DNA from: a virus
Reading direction: 5' to 3' (one strand)
Virus record (IMG/VR): IMGVR_UViG_3300042465_002900
Coordinates: 1 to 24,990 of that record
Length of the DNA: 24,990 bases
Below, in pieces: positions 8,495-24,772 of this stretch; the first letter of the stretch is position 1, and each line of letters begins with the position of its first letter. The position numbers and the translations under genes are program-made. The notes below the pieces were generated by a model. It was not told where the DNA came from and did not search any database. It was given only the letters and a program-made list of their open reading frames with translations.

Positions 8495-8731
8495 ATGGCA
8501 CATTTTGCAGAGTTAGATGAAAACAATGTTGTCCTCAGGGTAATTGTTGTACCTGATGAGCGTGAGCACGAAGGCGAAACTTGGTGCAATAGTTTGCTTG
8601 GTGGTCGCTGGAAGCAAACAAGTTACAACGGCAACATGCGTGGCATGTTCGCTGGCATTGGTTACACATATGACGCTCAGTTAGATGAGTTTGTTCCACC
8701 ATTCCCGATTGTTTTGCCTGCAGATTTGTAA
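8495..8731 (+). CDS. Conserved small virion-associated protein (MAHFAELD family)
   Basis: 78 residues: MAHFAELDENNVVLRVIVVP, then WCNSLLGGRWKQTSYNGNMR and FAGIGYTYDAQLDEFVPPFP. This is a widespread small protein of marine and freshwater phages that I recognise by pattern; it is usually beside tail or structural genes and often found fused to fibre proteins. The name of a function has not been settled to my knowledge. AGAAAGAG upstream at 8483-8490 is a plausible ribosome binding site. The next gene starts one base after the stop. Confidence 0.7.
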   Translation: MAHFAELDENNVVLRVIVVPDEREHEGETWCNSLLGGRWKQTSYNGNMRGMFAGIGYTYDAQLDEFVPPFPIVLPADL

Positions 8732-8732
8732 T

Positions 8733-10232
8733 GTGCTTAGGTCACGCTGGCTAGTTATATTGCCTGTTGCGTTACTTGCGGTGTTTGCAAGAGCGCAACC
8801 TGCACAAGCGGTTGATGGTGTTACGGCTGTTGGTTATTTCATAACGGATATTCCGCCTGCAATGAGCGAACAGCAATACGAGCAATGTGGCACAACTGTT
8901 TATCAGAACATCAACTGGACTTGGGACTACGAAGAAAACCATTTAGGCACTTGCGGTTGGGATAGTTTCGCAGTGCATTTCACAGGCGATATAACTATTC
9001 CTGATGGTGTGCAATTAGTTGAGTTTATGATTGCGCACGATGATGGTGCGCTAGTAACTATTGGCGACACGCAATTTGGCGGTTGGTACGACCAAGGTTG
9101 TATGTGGAGTGATGTTGCACAGTTGCAAGTCACGCAACAAACATTGCCGTTTGATATGTGGTATTACGAAAACGGCGGCAACACTTGCGCAATGCTTGCT
9201 TGGTCGCTTGATGGTGGTGACTGGGCAATCGTGCCTGCAGAGGCTTTCAGTACTTACACAACGCCAACAACAACCACTGAGGGGACTACTACAACTTGGG
9301 CATCTACAACAACATCCACGACAGCAACAACGACGACAGTTACTACTACTGCACCAACAACGACTGTGCTTGCCACAACAACAACTGTTGTTACTTCAAC
9401 AACTTCCACAACAACAACGACAGTGCCGGTATTACAACCCACCACAAGTCAACAACCATTATTGGAAACAACAACAACAAGTAGTACGACCACAACAACA
9501 ACCACAGAAGCACCTGCCCCACAAACGACAACAACAACAACAACAACGACAGCACCAGAATTACCGCCAGAAACTTACGCACCTGAAACTACTTATCTCG
9601 CAAGTGAAGAAACAGAACCATCACCGCTACCCACAGAACTGGAGAACACAACAGATACCACCACAACATCTGTTCAGCCTATCACGCCTGTTGATGAGGA
9701 ATTAGCGGTTGATGTACCAATACCCGATGAGCCTGTACTGCAAGTTGACGAACCAGTTGTCTTTGACGAGCAAGCCATTGACGAGGCAACAAACAACATT
9801 GTGGCGCTCGTTGCTCTTGTTGGCGATTTAGATGAAGCAACAGACGAAGAAGTAGAGGCAGTAATTGAGGCAGTGCTTGCTGGCGAGGTAAGCACTGAGG
9901 AAGCAACCGTGTTGGCAAGTAGCAGTGAAGTGCTTGAACAGATAACACAAGAGCAAGCCACAGAAGTATTTGCCGTGTTGGAACTAAACGAATTATCAGT
10001 AGATGAAATAGAGCAAATTATTGATGCAGTGCAGTCAGCGCCAGAGGAAGTTCGCAATGTGTTTGAGGCAGAAATAAATATCTTTGATGGCAAGACCGAT
10101 ACCTATGTTGCAGTTGGTAGCAACATATCTGTTGGCGCGAGGCGTGTGATGGTTGCAACAACAGGCGTACTAATTGCAGGAAGCATTGCGACAAGTGCAA
10201 CACAGTCACACACGAGCCGTAAGAATGGCTAG
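8733..10232 (+). CDS. Secreted PA14-like, Thr-rich, C-terminally anchored surface protein
   Basis: I choose the GTG at 8733 because it gives a clean signal peptide (MLRSRWLVILPVALLAVFAR then AQPAQA before VDG); an ATG at 8685 would overlap the upstream gene by 47 bases. About 499 residues. Residues about 30-170 resemble a PA14/GLEYA-type carbohydrate-binding domain (WDSFAVHFTGDITIPDG, FMIAHDDGALVTIGDTQFGG, several Cys). Residues about 175-320 are a Thr-rich linker with TTTT runs, probably O-glycosylated. An acidic helical region follows, then a hydrophobic segment (MVATTGVLIAGSIATSA) and a basic tail SRKNG. It could be a virion glycan-binding protein or a protein displayed on the infected host. 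Related architectures occur in Acidimicrobiia-like Actinobacteria. Confidence 0.65.
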   Translation: MLRSRWLVILPVALLAVFARAQPAQAVDGVTAVGYFITDIPPAMSEQQYEQCGTTVYQNINWTWDYEENHLGTCGWDSFAVHFTGDITIPDGVQLVEFMIAHDDGALVTIGDTQFGGWYDQGCMWSDVAQLQVTQQTLPFDMWYYENGGNTCAMLAWSLDGGDWAIVPAEAFSTYTTPTTTTEGTTTTWASTTTSTTATTTTVTTTAPTTTVLATTTTVVTSTTSTTTTTVPVLQPTTSQQPLLETTTTSSTTTTTTTEAPAPQTTTTTTTTTAPELPPETYAPETTYLASEETEPSPLPTELENTTDTTTTSVQPITPVDEELAVDVPIPDEPVLQVDEPVVFDEQAIDEATNNIVALVALVGDLDEATDEEVEAVIEAVLAGEVSTEEATVLASSSEVLEQITQEQATEVFAVLELNELSVDEIEQIIDAVQSAPEEVRNVFEAEINIFDGKTDTYVAVGSNISVGARRVMVATTGVLIAGSIATSATQSHTSRKNG

Positions 10233-16394: not shown

Positions 16395-17492
16395 ATGCCA
16401 CAAGCACTAACACCCGAAACACGCGAAAGATATTTGCGTGCACTTGACATGCGTGACAACGGACGCACATTCCGCGACATTGCGGATGTGTGTGGTTACG
16501 CCGACCCTGCCACGGCAAGGTACGCATGGATTGGCGGCTTGCGACTTGCAGGTCGCACTGCCGAAATTCCAACACGCACACCACGCCGTGTTGGTGTACG
16601 AGTAAACAACCGCACAACAACAATGACAGTTACACAACTTGAATCGTTCGTGCAGTTGAATGCGCTTACATTCGGAATTGAAATTGAATGTGTTGGCGTG
16701 AACACAACAACAGCGAAGCAGGCACTTGAAGCCGCAGGCATTACTTGCGAGAACAATGGCTACAACCACAACACACGACCTGTATGGAAAGTTGTTACTG
16801 ACGGTTCGTTGACTAGCCGTGATGGCAGTTGCGAAGTTGTTTCGCCAGTACTTAACGGCACAGACGGTTTGACTGAAGTGCGTACAGTGATGGCAGTGTT
16901 GCGAACTGCAGGTGCACGCATTAACGAATCGTGTGGCATGCACATCCACATCGGCGTTGACCAACTTTCGCAAGTACACCAAGCACGAATCATTCGTGCG
17001 TACGGCAAATGGAGTTGGGCATTCACGGGTTTGATTTTGCAACGCCGTGTGAACAACCGTTGGGCACAGTTGCGCTCGTCAAGTGGAACTGAACGCCTTG
17101 CTTCAGATTGGGAGAACAGCAGTGACTTGCGCAGTACTGCCTCGCGCCATGACCGCTACTACGCATTCAACATTGCGTCTTACCAACGCCATGGCACATT
17201 TGAAATGCGTGCGCATCACGGTTCGTTGAACGGCATGAATGCAAGCGCATGGATTGCCATGCACACTGCCTTCTTTGAAGCATGCCGAACAGAGGCTGGG
17301 TACAACGCATTGATGGCATGTGCAACCTCGCGTGATGAGTACAACGGAAGCAGTACTCGTGGCGAAGCAATTGAAGGTGCAAAGCGTTTGGCAGTTGGCT
17401 TGCGCAACATGCAACTTCTTAGCCTTGAAGCATGTGCTTACCTAGAAAGCCGTGCAGGCAACATCCCATCCGCCCGAAGCAACAACTCATAA
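16395..17492 (+). CDS. HTH-amidoligase fusion (COOH-NH2 ligase, Amidoligase_2 type)
   Basis: 365 residues behind AACAAGGAGACAAAGA. Residues about 1-50 form a helix-turn-helix-like segment (LRALDMRDNGRTFRDIADVC). The amidoligase domain runs from about 90 to 345 with all its hallmarks: TFGIEIECVG (92-101, metal-binding Glu96 and Glu98), WKVVTDGSL (131-139), CEVVSPVL (146-153), CGMHIHIG (180-187) and GTFEMRAHHGSLN (267-279). The family is related to glutamine synthetase and makes amide bonds between a carboxylate and an amine using ATP. The next gene is a class II glutamine amidotransferase, a partner known for such phage amidoligases. The substrate is unknown; proposed roles are tagging of peptides or cell-wall parts. 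Confidence 0.85.
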   Translation: MPQALTPETRERYLRALDMRDNGRTFRDIADVCGYADPATARYAWIGGLRLAGRTAEIPTRTPRRVGVRVNNRTTTMTVTQLESFVQLNALTFGIEIECVGVNTTTAKQALEAAGITCENNGYNHNTRPVWKVVTDGSLTSRDGSCEVVSPVLNGTDGLTEVRTVMAVLRTAGARINESCGMHIHIGVDQLSQVHQARIIRAYGKWSWAFTGLILQRRVNNRWAQLRSSSGTERLASDWENSSDLRSTASRHDRYYAFNIASYQRHGTFEMRAHHGSLNGMNASAWIAMHTAFFEACRTEAGYNALMACATSRDEYNGSSTRGEAIEGAKRLAVGLRNMQLLSLEACAYLESRAGNIPSARSNNS

Positions 17493-17522: not shown

Positions 17523-18458
17523 ATGTGTGGAATAGGCGCTTTCCAAATAATTGGAAACGAATGCGAGCCAGCGAAGGTTGCACGAGTGCTACTTCGTTTG
17601 CTTGAAGTAAGAGGCAAAGACGCAAGTGGCGTTGCGTGGCACGATGGCAACGGTGGCACATTTGTTCGCAAGAGCAACTGTGCAGGCAAGGAACTTGCAA
17701 AGGTGCTGAAGGACAATGTGGGCAACACAGGCATTGTGCATACACGCTGGGCAACTTTGGGCAGTCCAACAGTTGAAGCAAACAACCACCCGATTGATGT
17801 TGGTGGCGTTGTAGGCGTACACAACGGACATTGCACAAACCATGCCGAGTTGATTAGCAAGTGCGAAGGATATGCACGCAATGGACAAGTGGACAGCGAG
17901 GCAATCTTTGCCTTGATTGCGCACGGTCCTGCAAAGCAACGACTTCGCACACGACTTGCACAGGTGCAGGGCAATGCCGCCTTGTTGTGGTTGCGCAGTT
18001 TTGACAAGAACAACCGTTTGCATGCGGCACGACTTACAAGTAGCCCGTTGTGGTTTGGGCAAACGAAGTTGGGCAGTGTTGTGTTTGCAAGCACGCAGGC
18101 AATCTTGCTGGAGACAGGCAAGCGTTGCGGACTTGTGTTTGAGTACACACACGAAATGGCACAGGGAACTTATGTGCGAGTTGAGAACGGAGTACTTAGC
18201 GAGATGCAAACAGTTGACTTGCCTAAGCCGAAGTTCGTATTGCCGAAGCACGACTACACAAAGACAAGTGCTTACGCAAAGCCTGCAACGCAAAGCAAGG
18301 ACATTGAACTTGCAGAGCCGTTGGAATACACGCTGGACTTTGAGGACGAGTTTGATTACGAACTTGAACAATGGGAACACGACTTGTATGGCAACTCGTT
18401 GCGACACTCGCTGGACAAGCAATTCGGCATGGGCGCTTACAACAGGCACAGGTACTAA
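17523..18458 (+). CDS. Class II glutamine amidotransferase
   Basis: 311 residues behind AACAAGGAGACAAACA. The nucleophile Cys2 is in place (MCGIGAF). RGKDASG (30-36), HTRWATLG (73-80), NHP (88-90), HNGHCTN (100-106) and DSEA (124-127) are the glutamine-binding motifs of the Ntn-type domain, complete over residues 1-210. The last 80 residues are an acidic, Tyr-rich tail (LEYTLDFEDEFDYELEQWEH) not known to me in this family. It should release ammonia from glutamine for a partner, most likely the amidoligase encoded 30 bases upstream. A role with QueC in preQ0 amidation is a less likely alternative. Confidence 0.85.
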   Translation: MCGIGAFQIIGNECEPAKVARVLLRLLEVRGKDASGVAWHDGNGGTFVRKSNCAGKELAKVLKDNVGNTGIVHTRWATLGSPTVEANNHPIDVGGVVGVHNGHCTNHAELISKCEGYARNGQVDSEAIFALIAHGPAKQRLRTRLAQVQGNAALLWLRSFDKNNRLHAARLTSSPLWFGQTKLGSVVFASTQAILLETGKRCGLVFEYTHEMAQGTYVRVENGVLSEMQTVDLPKPKFVLPKHDYTKTSAYAKPATQSKDIELAEPLEYTLDFEDEFDYELEQWEHDLYGNSLRHSLDKQFGMGAYNRHRY

Positions 18459-19991: not shown

Positions 19992-20084
19992 CGTCTAAAT
20001 GCACGCTAGAGGCACGCAATCCCCCATATCCGCGCCATTGCTGATATTGTGATTGCAAGTAACAGCGACACTTATGGAGACAGC

Positions 20085-20690
20085 GTGGCACACAACATAA
20101 CGAAAGAACTTGTAAAACTTGCAAAGCCAATTGACAGCGTGCAACCACACCCACGCAATGTTCGCCAAGGCGATGTTGGCGCGATAGCAACCAGCCTTGA
20201 AATAAACGGGCAGTACCGCCCAATCGTTGTGCACAAAACAACGAGCAACATTCTTGCAGGCAACCACACATACAAAGCCGCCGTGAGTTTAGGTTGGACA
20301 GAGATTGCCATTACCTTTGTTGATTGCACAGATGATGAAGCGTTAAAGATTTTGCTTGCAGACAACAAAGCAAACGACTTGGCAAGTTATGACGACAGTG
20401 CACTTGCTGACTTGTTGCAAGACTTGGTTGGTGGTGCAGGACTTGATGGCACGCTTTACGAACTCAGCGACTTAGATGATTTGATTGCATTGCTTGAACC
20501 GCCAAACCTAGATGACTTGATTAGCGACATTGGCGAGCACGACGACAACGATGACTTCACTGGCGTAATTAAAGTGCGTGTTGGTTTAAGCGTGTACGAG
20601 CGTTGGCAAAACACATATGGCGAACTCGCAGGCGATACAGATGACGAACGCATATTGAGTTTGTTAAATGGTTACGACCAAGCGCACTAA
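20085..20690 (+). CDS. ParB/sulfiredoxin-fold protein, possible DpdB-like partner of DpdA
   Basis: 201 residues from the GTG at 20085, chosen because GGAGACA lies at 20076-20082; a GTG at 20049 without a binding site would add 12 residues. HPRNVRQGDVGAIATSLEIN, GQYRPIVV (42-49) and LAGNHTYKAAVSLG (58-70) are the boxes of the ParB N-terminal domain, followed by DNKANDLASYDDSALADLLQ. The C-terminal part is very acidic. ParB-like proteins may cut or bind DNA with nucleotide. In bacterial dpd clusters DpdB is also a ParB-like protein needed with DpdA for preQ0 insertion. Here the gene overlaps the DpdA-like gene by 23 bases. A generic phage ParB-like protein is the alternative. Confidence 0.7.
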   Translation: MAHNITKELVKLAKPIDSVQPHPRNVRQGDVGAIATSLEINGQYRPIVVHKTTSNILAGNHTYKAAVSLGWTEIAITFVDCTDDEALKILLADNKANDLASYDDSALADLLQDLVGGAGLDGTLYELSDLDDLIALLEPPNLDDLISDIGEHDDNDDFTGVIKVRVGLSVYERWQNTYGELAGDTDDERILSLLNGYDQAH

Positions 20691-21600
20691 CGGACTGCAC
20701 CTTTACCTTGCGGCCGCACCATCAACCACAAGGCATGCACTAATGGCATTGAACACACCTGCAGTTGAGCCAGCCAAGTTCTTGTTGTCGTACCACTACT
20801 TCAAGAAAATGGATTTAGACGAACTCGTTGAAGGCATGGGGCAGAAGCCAATGCTGTTTGCTGATAGTGGCGCATTCAGTGCGCTCACACAAGGCGCAGA
20901 TGTAAACATAAACGAATACGCCGCATGGATTAAGCGTTGGCAACATCTACTAACTGTGTATGTAAATCTTGATGTCATTCGTGACGCGAAGGCAACAGCA
21001 AGCAACCAGAAGCGCCTTGAACAACTTGGCTTGCAACCAATACCCGTGTTTCATACAGGCAGTGATTTCAAGCACTTAGACAAACTCGTTAAGACTTACC
21101 CGTACATCGCATTAGGTGGCATGGTTGGTGCAGAGGCGCAGGCGTGCTTCCGTTGGGCGGCAACTTGCATGAAGCGCACCGAAGAATATGGCACATGCTT
21201 TCATGGCTTCGGACAAACACGCAAGCAACTGATTGCCAACTTGCCTTGGTACAGCGTTGATTCATCGTCTTGGGGCAGTGGACATAGGTATGGCGCACTT
21301 GATATTTGGACAGGCAAAGAGTTTGCCAAAATAAAGATTGGCAATAAAGCAAGCGTGTACAAACACGCAAGCACATTACGCAAGTATGGCGTTGACCCCG
21401 TTTGCCTTTCTGACCGTGGGCGTTACCACCAGAAGTATGCAATCCGCATAAGCGCACAAAGTTGGCATGACTACGAACAACACCTGCGCCGCCGACATGG
21501 CGCAATACCTTGCCAAGACAGGGCAGACGGTTTGCACCTGTACTTAGTTGATGGCGCGAAAACAAATCTACAAGACGCAGGCAAAGCGATATTCAAATGA
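20668..21600 (+). CDS. dpdA: DpdA-like DNA guanine transglycosylase (tRNA-guanine transglycosylase fold)
   Basis: 310 residues. Key segments of the phage DpdA-type TIM barrel are ADSGAFSAL (65-73, catalytic Asp66 by analogy), YVNLDVI (98-104), PIPVFH (124-129), ALGGMV (148-153), HGFGQT (179-184) and SVDSSSW (196-202). The enzyme should swap guanine in DNA for preQ0 or a derivative. The QueC, QueD, QueE and FolE genes that supply preQ0 follow, which supports this role. I see no Cys zinc cluster like that in tRNA-type enzymes. The protein has an oddity: NGLHLYLAA at 8-16 and DGLHLYLVD at 288-296 are near repeats at its two ends. Confidence 0.8.
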   Translation: MVTTKRTNGLHLYLAAAPSTTRHALMALNTPAVEPAKFLLSYHYFKKMDLDELVEGMGQKPMLFADSGAFSALTQGADVNINEYAAWIKRWQHLLTVYVNLDVIRDAKATASNQKRLEQLGLQPIPVFHTGSDFKHLDKLVKTYPYIALGGMVGAEAQACFRWAATCMKRTEEYGTCFHGFGQTRKQLIANLPWYSVDSSSWGSGHRYGALDIWTGKEFAKIKIGNKASVYKHASTLRKYGVDPVCLSDRGRYHQKYAIRISAQSWHDYEQHLRRRHGAIPCQDRADGLHLYLVDGAKTNLQDAGKAIFK

Positions 21601-22013
21601 TTGTTGTTATTAACTGTGGCAAACAGAAGGCAACAGAGCCACGACCTGCCTATTCGCTGTACACAGGTTCATTCTTTAGAACATCAATGCAGTGGGCAAG
21701 ATGTTATGCACCGCAGAAAAACATATACATCATCTCTGCAAGGTATGGCATAGTGCGCTCGACAACAGTGCTTCAACCGTATGACCAACGCATTAAGCGT
21801 GATGTGCTTAACCCTGCAATGGTAAAGAAGCAAGCAAAGCAATTAGGCATAGACAAACACAAACCTTTGTTGATTGTCGGCAAGAGATATATGCACTTAA
21901 TTGATGCAGTGTGGCAAGACTACGAAGCACCATTTGCAGGCATTGAAGGCTTCGCAATGCAACAGGCAATGAAACGACATATAAACAAACTCAAACAACA
22001 GGAGAGCAAATGA
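21597..22013 (+). CDS. DUF6884-like protein in the 7-deazaguanine operon
   Basis: 138 residues, overlapping both neighbours by ATGA. VINCGKQKATEPRPAYSLYT, then IYIISARYGIVRSTTVLQPYD and KPLLIVGKRYMHLIDAVW match the pattern of DUF6884, a small family with a 'CGk.K......a..lY.G..f....a......i.ILSA.yGl' signature related to YaaA-type proteins. I know it from phages, often next to DpdA-like genes. Its function is not established. The location between DpdA and QueC suggests a part in modification or DNA contact. Confidence 0.7.
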   Translation: MIVVINCGKQKATEPRPAYSLYTGSFFRTSMQWARCYAPQKNIYIISARYGIVRSTTVLQPYDQRIKRDVLNPAMVKKQAKQLGIDKHKPLLIVGKRYMHLIDAVWQDYEAPFAGIEGFAMQQAMKRHINKLKQQESK

Positions 22014-22705
22014 AAACAGTGGCAATCGTTTCAGGCGGCATGGACAGCGTTGTATTGGCACACATGTTGTCAAGCGAAGGACATGACTTAACACTCGTTT
22101 CGTTTAACTACGGGCAACGCCACAGCAAAGAACTACTGTACGCCGCCCAATGCGCACAAGATTTAGAAGCACGCCACCACATTGTTGATTTGTCCAATGT
22201 GACTGCAATGCTTGACCAATCAGCATTAACCAATCCCAACATTGAAATTCCAGACGGACATTACGCAGAGGACACAATGCGAATCACTGTTGTGCCAAAC
22301 CGCAATGCAATCATGTTGAACATTGCCGCAGGTTTGGCAGTAAGCATTGGTGCAAACAAAGTTGCAACAGGTGTGCACGGTGGCGACCACTACATTTATC
22401 CCGACTGCCGACCAGCGTTTATTAAGGCAACTGATGCCATGTTGTGTGTTGCCACAGATGGCTTTGCAACCAAAGACTTTGGCGTGCTTGCACCATTCCT
22501 TAACTGGACAAAGGGCGATATTGCTCGCGAAGGCAACAGGTTAGGCGTTGACTTCACTAAGACATGGAGTTGCTACAAAGGCGGCGAGATACATTGTGGC
22601 GCTTGTGGAACATGCTTTGAACGCAGAGAAGCATTCGCAGAAGCAGAAGTGTTTGACTTTACTGAATATCTAGCCACACCCGAATACAACGACCCAAGGA
22701 AATAA
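22010..22705 (+). CDS. queC: 7-cyano-7-deazaguanine (preQ0) synthase QueC
   Basis: 231 residues. The PP-loop SGGMDS (8-13) binds ATP. YGQRH (34-38), VPNRN (95-99) and YPDCR (130-134) are conserved QueC motifs. The C-terminal zinc site is complete: Cys188, Cys196, Cys199 and Cys202 (SCYKGGEIHCGACGTCFERR). It turns CDG into preQ0 using ATP and ammonia. It is a free-standing QueC; the class II amidotransferase domain fused to QueC in some phages is absent from this protein. It overlaps the upstream gene and ends 1 base before queD. Confidence 0.95.
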   Translation: MKTVAIVSGGMDSVVLAHMLSSEGHDLTLVSFNYGQRHSKELLYAAQCAQDLEARHHIVDLSNVTAMLDQSALTNPNIEIPDGHYAEDTMRITVVPNRNAIMLNIAAGLAVSIGANKVATGVHGGDHYIYPDCRPAFIKATDAMLCVATDGFATKDFGVLAPFLNWTKGDIAREGNRLGVDFTKTWSCYKGGEIHCGACGTCFERREAFAEAEVFDFTEYLATPEYNDPRK

Positions 22706-22706
22706 C

Positions 22707-23060
22707 ATGTACACAATTACAAAGCAATTCACATTCAGCGCATCGCACCAACTAACTGGCTTGCCTGCCAATCACCAATGCGCCAGGTTGCATGGGCACA
22801 ACTACATTGTTGAGGCAGTGTTGCAAGCAAAGAAGGTTGATGCAGTTGGTTTCGTGCGCGACTACGGCGAACTCAGTTACATTGGCAACTACATTGACGC
22901 AGTGCTTGACCACAAACACTTGAATGATTTGTTTGAGTGCAACCCAACAGCAGAAAACATGGCACGAGTGCTGTACGACAAGTTCGTTGTGCAATACCCT
23001 GAACTCGTTGCCATACGCATTAGCGAAACAACAAAGACATGGGCTGAATACCGCAAGTGA
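22707..23060 (+). CDS. queD: 6-carboxy-5,6,7,8-tetrahydropterin synthase QueD
   Basis: 117 residues, the usual short form. The zinc ligands are His14 (SASHQL), His29 and His31 (RLHGHNY), with the catalytic Cys25 four residues before HGH. DHKHLND (68-74) supplies the His of the catalytic triad, PTAENMA (80-86) is a family hallmark and the terminal Glu107 in SETTKTW binds the pterin. It converts the FolE product to CPH4. AGGA at 22696-22700 serves as binding site. Confidence 0.95.
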   Translation: MYTITKQFTFSASHQLTGLPANHQCARLHGHNYIVEAVLQAKKVDAVGFVRDYGELSYIGNYIDAVLDHKHLNDLFECNPTAENMARVLYDKFVVQYPELVAIRISETTKTWAEYRK

Positions 23061-23062
23061 AA

Positions 23063-23118
23063 CGCCTGCACCTTTACCCCAAAGCACACAATCTCTCGCG
23101 TTACAACGCAACTGTGAG
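23063..23118 (+). repeat. Copy 2 of the 56-base two-part element, upstream of queE
   Basis: CGCCTGCACCTTTACCCCA (23063-23081) plus CTCGC-N8-ACGCAACTGTGAG (23095-23118) repeat copy 1 at 19936-19991 with the same spacing. It fills the only real gap in the operon, just before queE, so it may give queE and the FolE fusion gene a promoter of their own. Base identity outside the boxes is low. Confidence 0.65.
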
Positions 23119-23126
23119 TGCGTGAA

Positions 23127-23894
23127 ATGGCTGACTTTGACGCAATGAGCACGATTATGAACAAACAACCGCAACTCAGTTGGAGTGAATGTTTCGGCCC
23201 AACACTGCAAGGCGAAGGCAAACACATTGGCAAACAGTCGTATTTCATTCGGCTTGGCTTATGCAACCTTGATTGCAAATGGTGTGACACGCCTTACACA
23301 TGGGATTGGACAGGCAAGAACGGGCACAAGTATTCAAAGGCAATTGAGTTAAGGCGTTCAACTGTTAGTGAGTTAGCCGCCAAAGTGCCGGCAACATGCC
23401 AACATGTTGTGCTTACAGGTGGCGAACCAATGTTGCAACAAACAGCGTTGTTTGAATTGTGCACACTGTTGCGCGACAGAGGGCACAGTGTTGAGATAGA
23501 AACAAACGGCACAATCAAACCAAAGTCAAGAGACTGGCTACGCAACGCAGAACAACACAGTGACATTGGCGTTCAATTCAATGTGTCACCGAAGTTAGGT
23601 AACAGTGGCGTTGCATGGGAGATTGCAATTAACGAAGAAGCGTTGATTGAGTACAAACACCTTGGCGCAATCTTTAAGTTTGTTATCACTAATGCTGATG
23701 ACTTGGCACAGGTTGCGTACCTGCAGAACGCATTGCAACTGGCAAGCGATTCAATTTACATAATGCCTGAAGGACGCACACAACAAGAGATACTGGCGAA
23801 GTTGCCTGAACTGTTTGATGTGTGTGCGCAAGAAGGATATGTATTAACACCACGCCTACATGTGTTGGCGTTCAACGATAAGAGGGGCATATGA
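23127..23894 (+). CDS. queE: 7-carboxy-7-deazaguanine synthase QueE
   Basis: 255 residues from ATG 23127; a GTG at 23118 would add 3 residues but overlaps the conserved element. The radical SAM cluster motif is CNLDCKWC (CX3CX2C), in RLGLCNLDCKWCDTPYTWDW. TGGEPMLQ binds SAM, ETNGT and VSPKLG follow, and the end RLHVLAFNDKRGI is typical of QueE. It needs SAM and Mg to convert CPH4 to CDG, contracting the ring. The gene overlaps the FolE fusion gene by ATGA. Confidence 0.95.
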   Translation: MADFDAMSTIMNKQPQLSWSECFGPTLQGEGKHIGKQSYFIRLGLCNLDCKWCDTPYTWDWTGKNGHKYSKAIELRRSTVSELAAKVPATCQHVVLTGGEPMLQQTALFELCTLLRDRGHSVEIETNGTIKPKSRDWLRNAEQHSDIGVQFNVSPKLGNSGVAWEIAINEEALIEYKHLGAIFKFVITNADDLAQVAYLQNALQLASDSIYIMPEGRTQQEILAKLPELFDVCAQEGYVLTPRLHVLAFNDKRGI

Positions 23895-24772
23895 GACACA
23901 TCACATGGCTAGAGGTACAAGCAGAAGCAGAACGCATTGCAAAGACTTGGCGTGGGCGTTGCGACAATGTGTACGGCATACCGCAAGGTGGTGCGCCACT
24001 AGCAGTAATGGTTGCCTACATACTTGGCGTGCCGTTAGCGCAAGAGCCAAAGATAGGCATGAACACACTTGTTGTTGATGACTTAGTTGATTCAGGCAAA
24101 ACATTGAAACGCTATTTCGGCAAGCACCATGTTGATGCCGCCTTTCGCAAGAGCCACTCGCCAACGCACTATGCACCAGACGCAACCTGCATAGATGATT
24201 GGTTGTCGTTTCCGTGGGAGAAGAACGATGGTGCGCCTACAGATGGCGTTGTGCGCTTGCTCGAATACATTGGCGAAAACCCTGAGCGTGATGGTTTGCG
24301 TGATACGCCTGAGCGTGTACTGAAGGCAATGAAAGAGATGACTGTTGGTTACAACACCGACATTGCACAGTTGTTGTCCGTGTCGTTTGATGTGGACTTT
24401 GATGAATTGGTTGTTGTGCGCAATGTGCCTTTCAACAGCCTGTGCGAGCACCACATGTTGCCGTTCACTGGCACTGCAACCGTTGGCTACATACCTAAGA
24501 AGCGCATTGTTGGTTTGTCAAAACTTGCACGCCTTGTTGATGCGTATGCCAAACGCCTACAGGTGCAAGAGCGCATGACTAAACAGATTGCCGATGCAAT
24601 GCTTGAACACATTGACCCGCTTGGCTGTGGTGTTGTTGTGCGTGGCAATCATTCGTGCATGTCGTGCCGTGGCATTAACAAAACAGGTGAAATGGTTACG
24701 AGCAGTCTGCATGGCGTGTTGCGCAATGACGGCATTGCTCGCGCCGAGTTCCTCGCACTTGCAGGCTATTAA
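23891..24772 (+). CDS. folE: Xanthine-guanine phosphoribosyltransferase-like domain fused to GTP cyclohydrolase I (FolE)
   Basis: 293 residues in two domains. Residues 1-110 resemble E. coli Gpt: ITWLEVQAEAERIAKTW, GIPQGGAPLAVMVAYILGV, the PRPP loop VVDDLVDSGKT (61-71) and the end IDDWLSFPWE. Residues about 115-293 are FolE: EYIGENPERDGLRDTPERVL, SLCEHHMLPF (Cys185 and His188 zinc ligands), GLSKLARLVDAYAKRLQVQE and HSCMSCRGI (Cys256 as third ligand). FolE starts preQ0 synthesis by making dihydroneopterin triphosphate from GTP. The transferase may recycle guanine, the by-product of DpdA. Fusion of these two domains is unusual. The E. coli order of motifs is kept, but Gpt's segment between the two motifs is shortened. 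Confidence 0.9.
   Translation: MRHITWLEVQAEAERIAKTWRGRCDNVYGIPQGGAPLAVMVAYILGVPLAQEPKIGMNTLVVDDLVDSGKTLKRYFGKHHVDAAFRKSHSPTHYAPDATCIDDWLSFPWEKNDGAPTDGVVRLLEYIGENPERDGLRDTPERVLKAMKEMTVGYNTDIAQLLSVSFDVDFDELVVVRNVPFNSLCEHHMLPFTGTATVGYIPKKRIVGLSKLARLVDAYAKRLQVQERMTKQIADAMLEHIDPLGCGVVVRGNHSCMSCRGINKTGEMVTSSLHGVLRNDGIARAEFLALAGY

Follow-up and report, generated by a model that had tools for sequence, protein, structure and literature searches.

A seven-gene cassette in a phage genome fragment

The DNA analyzed here is the whole of IMG/VR virus record IMGVR_UViG_3300042465_002900, a stretch of 24,990 bases hereafter called the window, in which we studied a cassette for the synthesis of preQ0 and its proposed insertion into DNA. 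The window encodes tail, tape-measure, RecE-like and replication proteins, which show its source to be a phage, and the record is probably a fragment of that phage's genome. No DNA similarity to cultured phages was found in the first 8 kb. The cassette consists of seven genes on the + strand between positions 20049 and 24772, overlapping or closely spaced, which encode a ParB-like protein, DpdA, a protein of family DUF6884, QueC, QueD, QueE and FolE. A preliminary description of this DNA had placed the start of the cassette at position 20085, inside the ParB-like gene, and had overlooked this gene, the DUF6884 gene and a phosphoribosyltransferase (PRT) domain carried by the FolE protein. The gene order recurs in relatives, with protein identities of about 49-79% for DpdA, QueC, QueD, QueE and FolE, showing that the cassette is not a chance arrangement. 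The ParB-like protein is 70-76% identical in the related loci L011, L012 and L193, and a ParB-like gene occupies the equivalent position in Rosebush-group phages, in Rhodococcus phage Finch and in Fusobacterium phage phiFN37.

preQ0 synthesis and base exchange

All four preQ0 genes (folE, queD, queE and queC) are encoded in the cassette. Together with dpdA, they lie at the place and on the strand given in the preliminary description, with strong family matches (Table 1). The catalytic and metal residues that it had reported in the Que and FolE proteins were also confirmed. Alignment to 3bl5 showed an intact P-loop and Cys4 zinc site in QueC, and alignment to 2oba an intact catalytic Cys and zinc His in QueD. 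QueE, which matches 5tgs at 1.9e-18, retains its CxxxCxxC motif, and FolE its CEHH...HxCM motif. In DpdA, the two aspartates typical of tRNA-guanine transglycosylases (TGT), D66 (DSGAFS) and D198 (VDSSS), are invariant across 15 relatives. At E<=0.1, the DpdA profile matches a single PDB entry, the DNA-guanine transglycosylase 7ui4, with a marginal E of 0.06, and the PADLOC DpdA match is weak (0.009). The nearest cultured relatives of this DpdA are found in mycobacteriophages, in Rhodococcus phage Finch and in Gordonia phage Sour, all infecting actinobacteria; its identity to actinophage DpdA is 35-41%.

FolE, QueD, QueE and QueC would build preQ0 from GTP, and DpdA would then exchange some guanines of the phage DNA for preQ0. 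Modification of this kind would most likely shield the phage from host restriction, for which 7-deazaguanine DNA is a known phage route. Overall, the window very probably holds a phage DNA-hypermodification cassette, and the phage DNA very probably carries some 7-deazaguanine. We predict the chemistry of every step from the gene content, the motifs, the homologies, the folds and the conserved linkage. The phage-encoded preQ0 pathway with a DNA-type transglycosylase, as put forward in the preliminary description, is supported. A QueF profile gave only weak matches below cut-off, located inside FolE, which has a related T-fold; since the record is probably a fragment, the absence of QueF or of other enzymes from the window proves nothing.

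The core of the cassette is an established system. Its order ParB-like-DpdA-QueC-QueD-QueE-FolE is shared with the Rosebush group (Arbiter, Saguaro), with Sour and with Finch, and the gene set is therefore not distinct, as had been supposed. Compared with Rosebush-type cassettes, the window has a DpdA only 34-36% identical and a different genome context. The variation lies in a DpdC-related gene, that of the DUF6884 protein, within the operon, and in the fusion of a xanthine-guanine phosphoribosyltransferase (XGPRT) domain to FolE.

In the pooled set of fetched loci, at least two DpdA matches were observed in 18 of 128 distinct DpdA loci. L012 (10001-12321) and L118 have two DpdA paralogues per operon with the DUF6884 gene between them. 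Such pairs could form a heterodimer or provide two sequence specificities.

A DpdC-related protein encoded between dpdA and queC

DUF6884 is a domain of bacterial DpdC, and DpdC is needed for 7-amido-7-deazaguanine in DNA (dADG) in S. Montevideo (PMC11888242, a 2025 preprint). It is required for the step from inserted preQ0 (dPreQ0) to dADG, and DpdC and ArcS alike act on the nitrile group of preQ0 that has already been inserted (PMC6884629, PMC11298593). As a reference we used seven bacterial DpdC proteins. Neighboring genes were inspected for five of them: three plasmid copies are annotated beside DpdB and DpdA, and the translated gene that adjoins the L310 and L311 copies is DpdB-like. The other two are unannotated plasmid loci. 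Comparison of the DpdC profile with that of 33 operon-linked DUF6884 proteins by hhalign gave a probability of 97% (E 8e-11), as compared to less than 1% for unrelated operon proteins used as decoys. The window protein itself matches PADLOC DpdC at 1.4e-4. The motifs CxxxK, AxxLY and SAxxG are common to DUF6884 and DpdC, and CxxxK is present in 33/33 operon-linked members; the window protein retains the invariant CxxxK and SAxxG.

A weaker and less certain relation was seen with the core domain of ArcS (DUF5591), for which hhalign gave a probability of 50%, the decoys reaching no more than 2.6%. The AlphaFold2 model of the DUF6884 protein (pLDDT 95.7) matched YaaA with a Z of 8.5 and the ArcS-family protein AF0587 (2q07) with a Z of 7.0, all other matches being at or below 4.6. 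AF0587 is matched by the ArcS core domain at 9e-34, which assigns it to the ArcS family by sequence. The direct sequence match of the DUF6884 protein to the PDB is weak (YaaA, E 0.25). The ArcS core thus resembles the window protein by a weak sequence relation, a similar fold and CxxxK, whereas ArcS is a large multidomain tRNA enzyme in which SAxxG is mostly SPxG.

The organization is also reminiscent of bacterial dpd islands (DpdC-DpdB-DpdA), where a DUF6884-type protein with the same three motifs is likewise encoded beside a DNA transglycosylase. In contrast to these islands, the window has a phage-type DpdA, its DUF6884 protein is without the C-terminal half of DpdC, and the DndB-type DpdB and restriction genes were not seen in the window. 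Because the C-terminal extension is missing, we call the window protein DpdC-related, not DpdC. Since both DpdC and ArcS act on a nitrile, a base-decorating role is favored, and the DUF6884 protein likely acts in the preQ0/DpdA pathway. Like DpdC, it would target the nitrile of preQ0 already placed in the DNA, yielding dADG instead of plain dPreQ0.

Genomic linkage of DUF6884

The DUF6884 gene shares 4 bases with dpdA at one end and 4 with queC at the other, and is found in the equivalent position in the uncultured relatives L011 and L012 and in L193. A search of viral contigs with a four-member alignment gave 74 loci, 59 of which are distinct once near-copies are removed; the seeds were all operon-linked, so that the linked subset is favored. 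Among these 59, dpdA, que or folE genes lie within about 8 kb in 46, and DpdA itself is found in 31. The usual slot in linked viral loci is the dpdA/queC or the queC/queD junction. The sequences of twelve of the 13 unlinked loci place them in a single T4-like group; on our reading, its partner genes are at least 3 kb downstream and most stretches stop short of that. These T4-like phages (L126-L160) carry DUF6884 with scattered QueD, QueC, QueE and FolE, and have SAKYH instead of SAKYG. No DpdA was found in this group with the DpdA profile used; it probably has another DpdA type. In bacterial genomes, only 2 of 34 DUF6884 loci are linked to dpdA, que or folE. In a DUF6884 phylogeny, the operon-linked proteins do not group as a single clade; the tree shows two large sets and is poorly resolved.

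Conversely, DUF6884 is present in 42 of the 128 distinct DpdA loci of the pooled set and in 9/78 loci of a DpdA-seeded search. It is thus an optional accessory. In phage phiFN37, ParB, DpdA and DUF6884 follow each other as in the window, but a queuosine-precursor transporter comes next, and no preQ0 synthesis genes occur in the stretch read. DpdA-DUF6884 operons with a YhhQ-like queuosine-precursor transporter replacing the preQ0 synthesis genes were also seen in L162, L163, L166, L176, L185 and L019, which suggests that these import preQ0. A complete ParB-DpdA-DUF6884-QueC-QueD-QueE-FolE set lies on a bacterial contig of Staphylococcus intermedius NCTC 11048 (L277), for which an isolate exists; it is probably a prophage.

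Identity of the modified base

The preliminary description had seen no known decorating enzyme in the window and had taken dPreQ0 as the simplest prediction. With a DpdC-related gene between dpdA and queC, neither statement is safe, and we tentatively favor a final base that is mainly dADG. Phages MED16 and 7-11 are reported with dADG, as CP220 reportedly is. The authors of the MED16 work detected dADG but no gene that would account for it; for the phage enzyme that makes dADG, the small DUF6884 family, tightly linked to dpdA, is a concrete candidate. Our literature search, which did not extend to 2023 work on four further phage 7-deazaguanines and their enzymes, did not find DUF6884 described as a phage dPreQ0-decorating enzyme.

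Several observations weigh against this proposal. The window protein (138 residues) is without the C-terminal part of about 170 residues of DpdC (about 312 residues). MED16, 7-11 and CP220 have no DUF6884, implying that other routes to dADG exist. DUF6884 occurs without dpd genes in phages and in most bacteria. The window protein is 35-40% identical to its positional counterparts in L011, L012 and L193, as compared to 62-73% for DpdA and 66-79% for QueC. This divergence above that of the flanking genes suggests, as a reading of the sequences, fast evolution or allele replacement. QueF or Gat-QueC co-occurs with DpdA in 1/42 loci with DUF6884 as against 9/86 without, which is a trend only (p=0.16). 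The Pfam authors describe a DUF6884 member, YfjM of B. subtilis, that binds abasic and RNA-base DNA lesions and has a YaaA-like fold (PMC11701544). Finally, Rosebush DNA contains dPreQ0 at about 28% of G and dADG in trace only (PMC6884629). In our analysis Rosebush (NC_004684, AY129334) was represented by Arbiter, a phage of its species, which carries a motif-intact DUF6884 outside the operon, though the DNA of Rosebush is nearly all dPreQ0.

The last two points lead to a serious rival, which we regard as a real possibility, namely that the end product is plain dPreQ0 and that the DUF6884 protein is a DNA-binding helper, for instance one handling abasic or covalent transglycosylase intermediates when preQ0 is short. 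Rosebush has equivalent core genes and yet dPreQ0, and the best match of the DUF6884 model, YaaA, is itself a DNA-binding protein. On the other hand, DUF6884 is strongly related to DpdC, a protein required for dADG, and the 86 of 128 DpdA loci that have no DUF6884 indicate that the protein is not needed for the exchange itself. The weight of the Rosebush example also depends on the kind of DUF6884 involved. In Arbiter, Saguaro, Quesadilla and Finch the gene is located away from the operon, and the Arbiter-type protein falls in a strongly supported long-branch clade, distant from that of the window, with copies from Cheetobro and Sneeze, phages that have no DpdA. Copies of this type are probably a different functional type, which softens the objection from Rosebush but does not remove it.

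An archaeosine (dG+) or another amidine as the final base is improbable. It could arise if the DUF6884 protein worked like an ArcS core, to which the hhalign score above decoys and the 2q07 fold match lend support, or if QueC acted as a split Gat-QueC with the class II amidotransferase whose gene lies some 2 kb upstream of the cassette. ArcS proper is, however, a much larger enzyme that is reported to work with a radical S-adenosylmethionine (SAM) partner; no search for such a partner was made. The archaeosine literature names a RaSEA complex. As for the amidotransferase, it resembles amidoligase-paired ones of Arthrobacter phages without DpdA, and it barely matches Gat-QueC (E 0.026). It is more improbable still that DpdA acts on tRNA and that the operon serves a queuosine-related modification of tRNA. 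Public records do annotate phage members as 'queuine tRNA-ribosyltransferase', but DNA is the substrate of the closest relatives that have been characterized (PMC6884629), and the one structure matched by the DpdA profile is a DNA enzyme.

A phosphoribosyltransferase domain fused to FolE

The FolE protein begins with a compact PRT domain (residues 1-112), whose AlphaFold2 model has a pLDDT of 96.3. The model superimposes on E. coli XGPRT (4jls) with a Z of 15.7 over 111/112 residues at 2.0 A, and the 17 structures that rank highest by Z are without exception purine transferases, acting on guanine, xanthine or hypoxanthine. The phosphoribosyl pyrophosphate (PRPP) motif VDDLVDSGKT and the C-terminal WxxFPWE are conserved. 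Among 15 homologues, neither the acidic pair D63 and D64 nor the purine-site residues W104 and P108 vary, and K87 is almost invariant. The domain thus shares its fold, the PRPP motif and the C-terminal W..PW motif with E. coli XGPRT (Gpt), but it is fused to FolE and has lost a flexible loop, being about 20 residues shorter there than Gpt, a point that the structure searches support independently.

Among the fetched loci, we counted 38 distinct PRT-FolE fusions and 11 distinct stand-alone PRT copies, and a PRT gene or domain is present in 42/128 distinct DpdA loci. One Clostridia genome (L269) has a separate PRT copy within a dpdA-queC-DUF6884 operon, and L011 and L012 have no PRT domain. The fusion is also found in Queuovirinae phages (VpKK5, Quinobequin-P09) and in Sphingomonas phage MMDA13, with 40-45% identity over its length and accompanied by DpdA and Que genes. 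These phages differ from the window by another gene order and the absence of DUF6884, and Quinobequin-P09 has Gat-QueC. In L208 (6285-7886), a 534-residue frame has about 240 extra residues ahead of PRT and FolE, and is possibly a three-domain fusion.

TGT-type enzymes release one guanine per exchange. With a PRT domain placed beside a GTP-consuming enzyme, recycling of this guanine is the natural reading: the domain would convert guanine released by DpdA to GMP, which would re-enter as GTP beside FolE. Guanine salvage by this domain, a reading drawn from fold and fusion only, is about as likely as not. Somewhat unlikely in our view is that the domain, instead of salvaging guanine, controls FolE through a bound ligand such as GMP, GTP or ppGpp. 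The missing loop would fit such a role, as would one of the structural matches, 5vog, in which a protein of PRT fold is in complex with ppGpp; the conservation of the PRPP-motif acidic residues and of the purine-site residues speaks against it, as does the occurrence of PRT as a stand-alone gene.

Guanine recycling by a PRT-FolE fusion in these operons was not found described in the literature searched. If true, it would explain how the phage pays the nucleotide cost of post-replication base replacement, and the fusion would be a new annotation marker for such operons. The joint proposal is that single-domain DUF6884 proteins are the phages' minimal dPreQ0-decorating enzymes (stand-alone DpdC/ArcS-like cores) and that a fused or adjacent PRT loops excised guanine through GTP back to preQ0. 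In its entirety, it is rather unlikely to hold.

Neighboring genes

The class II amidotransferase upstream of the cassette is encoded next to an amidoligase, its partner (Table 1). It is 34% identical (9e-35) to amidoligase-paired amidotransferases of Arthrobacter phages without DpdA; the adjacent pair was also seen in two such phages, Salgado and Kharcho. Because the protein groups with amidoligase pairs and matches Gat-QueC at E 0.026, a split Gat-QueC as a source of dG+ was rejected. The window QueC itself is unfused, without the fusion that defines the Gat-QueC type.

Table 1. Positions of the cassette genes and domains and of the upstream amidoligase pair
Feature	Positions	Strand	Matches and remarks
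ParB-like nuclease-domain protein, cassette gene 1	20049..20690	+	Pfam ParB_N 3.6e-6, PHROG 8071 1.8e-38; GTG start, may be shorter
DpdA, predicted DNA guanine transglycosylase, 310 residues	20668..21600	+	PHROG 887 3.5e-51
DUF6884 protein, 138 residues, DpdC-related	21597..22013	+	Pfam 4.2e-17; proposed action on inserted dPreQ0
QueC, preQ0 synthase, unfused to amidotransferase	22010..22705	+	Pfam 1.4e-62; TIGR00364 above cut-off
QueD, 6-carboxytetrahydropterin synthase	22707..23060	+	Pfam 7.3e-30
QueE, radical SAM 7-carboxy-7-deazaguanine synthase	23118..23894	+	PHROG 2076 4.5e-59; radical SAM 4e-10; start uncertain
Minimal XGPRT domain, N-terminal part of FolE protein	23891..24226	+	Fold, PRPP motif; proposed guanine recycling
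FolE, GTP cyclohydrolase I domain, residues 120-290	24227..24772	+	Pfam 2.1e-64; TIGR00063 above cut-off
Class II glutamine amidotransferase	17523-18458		Adjoins amidoligase
Amidoligase	16395-17492		Partner of amidotransferase 17523-18458

Further upstream, positions 8685-10232 encode a long threonine-rich repetitive protein that follows two glycine-rich tail-type proteins and is probably located at the virion surface.

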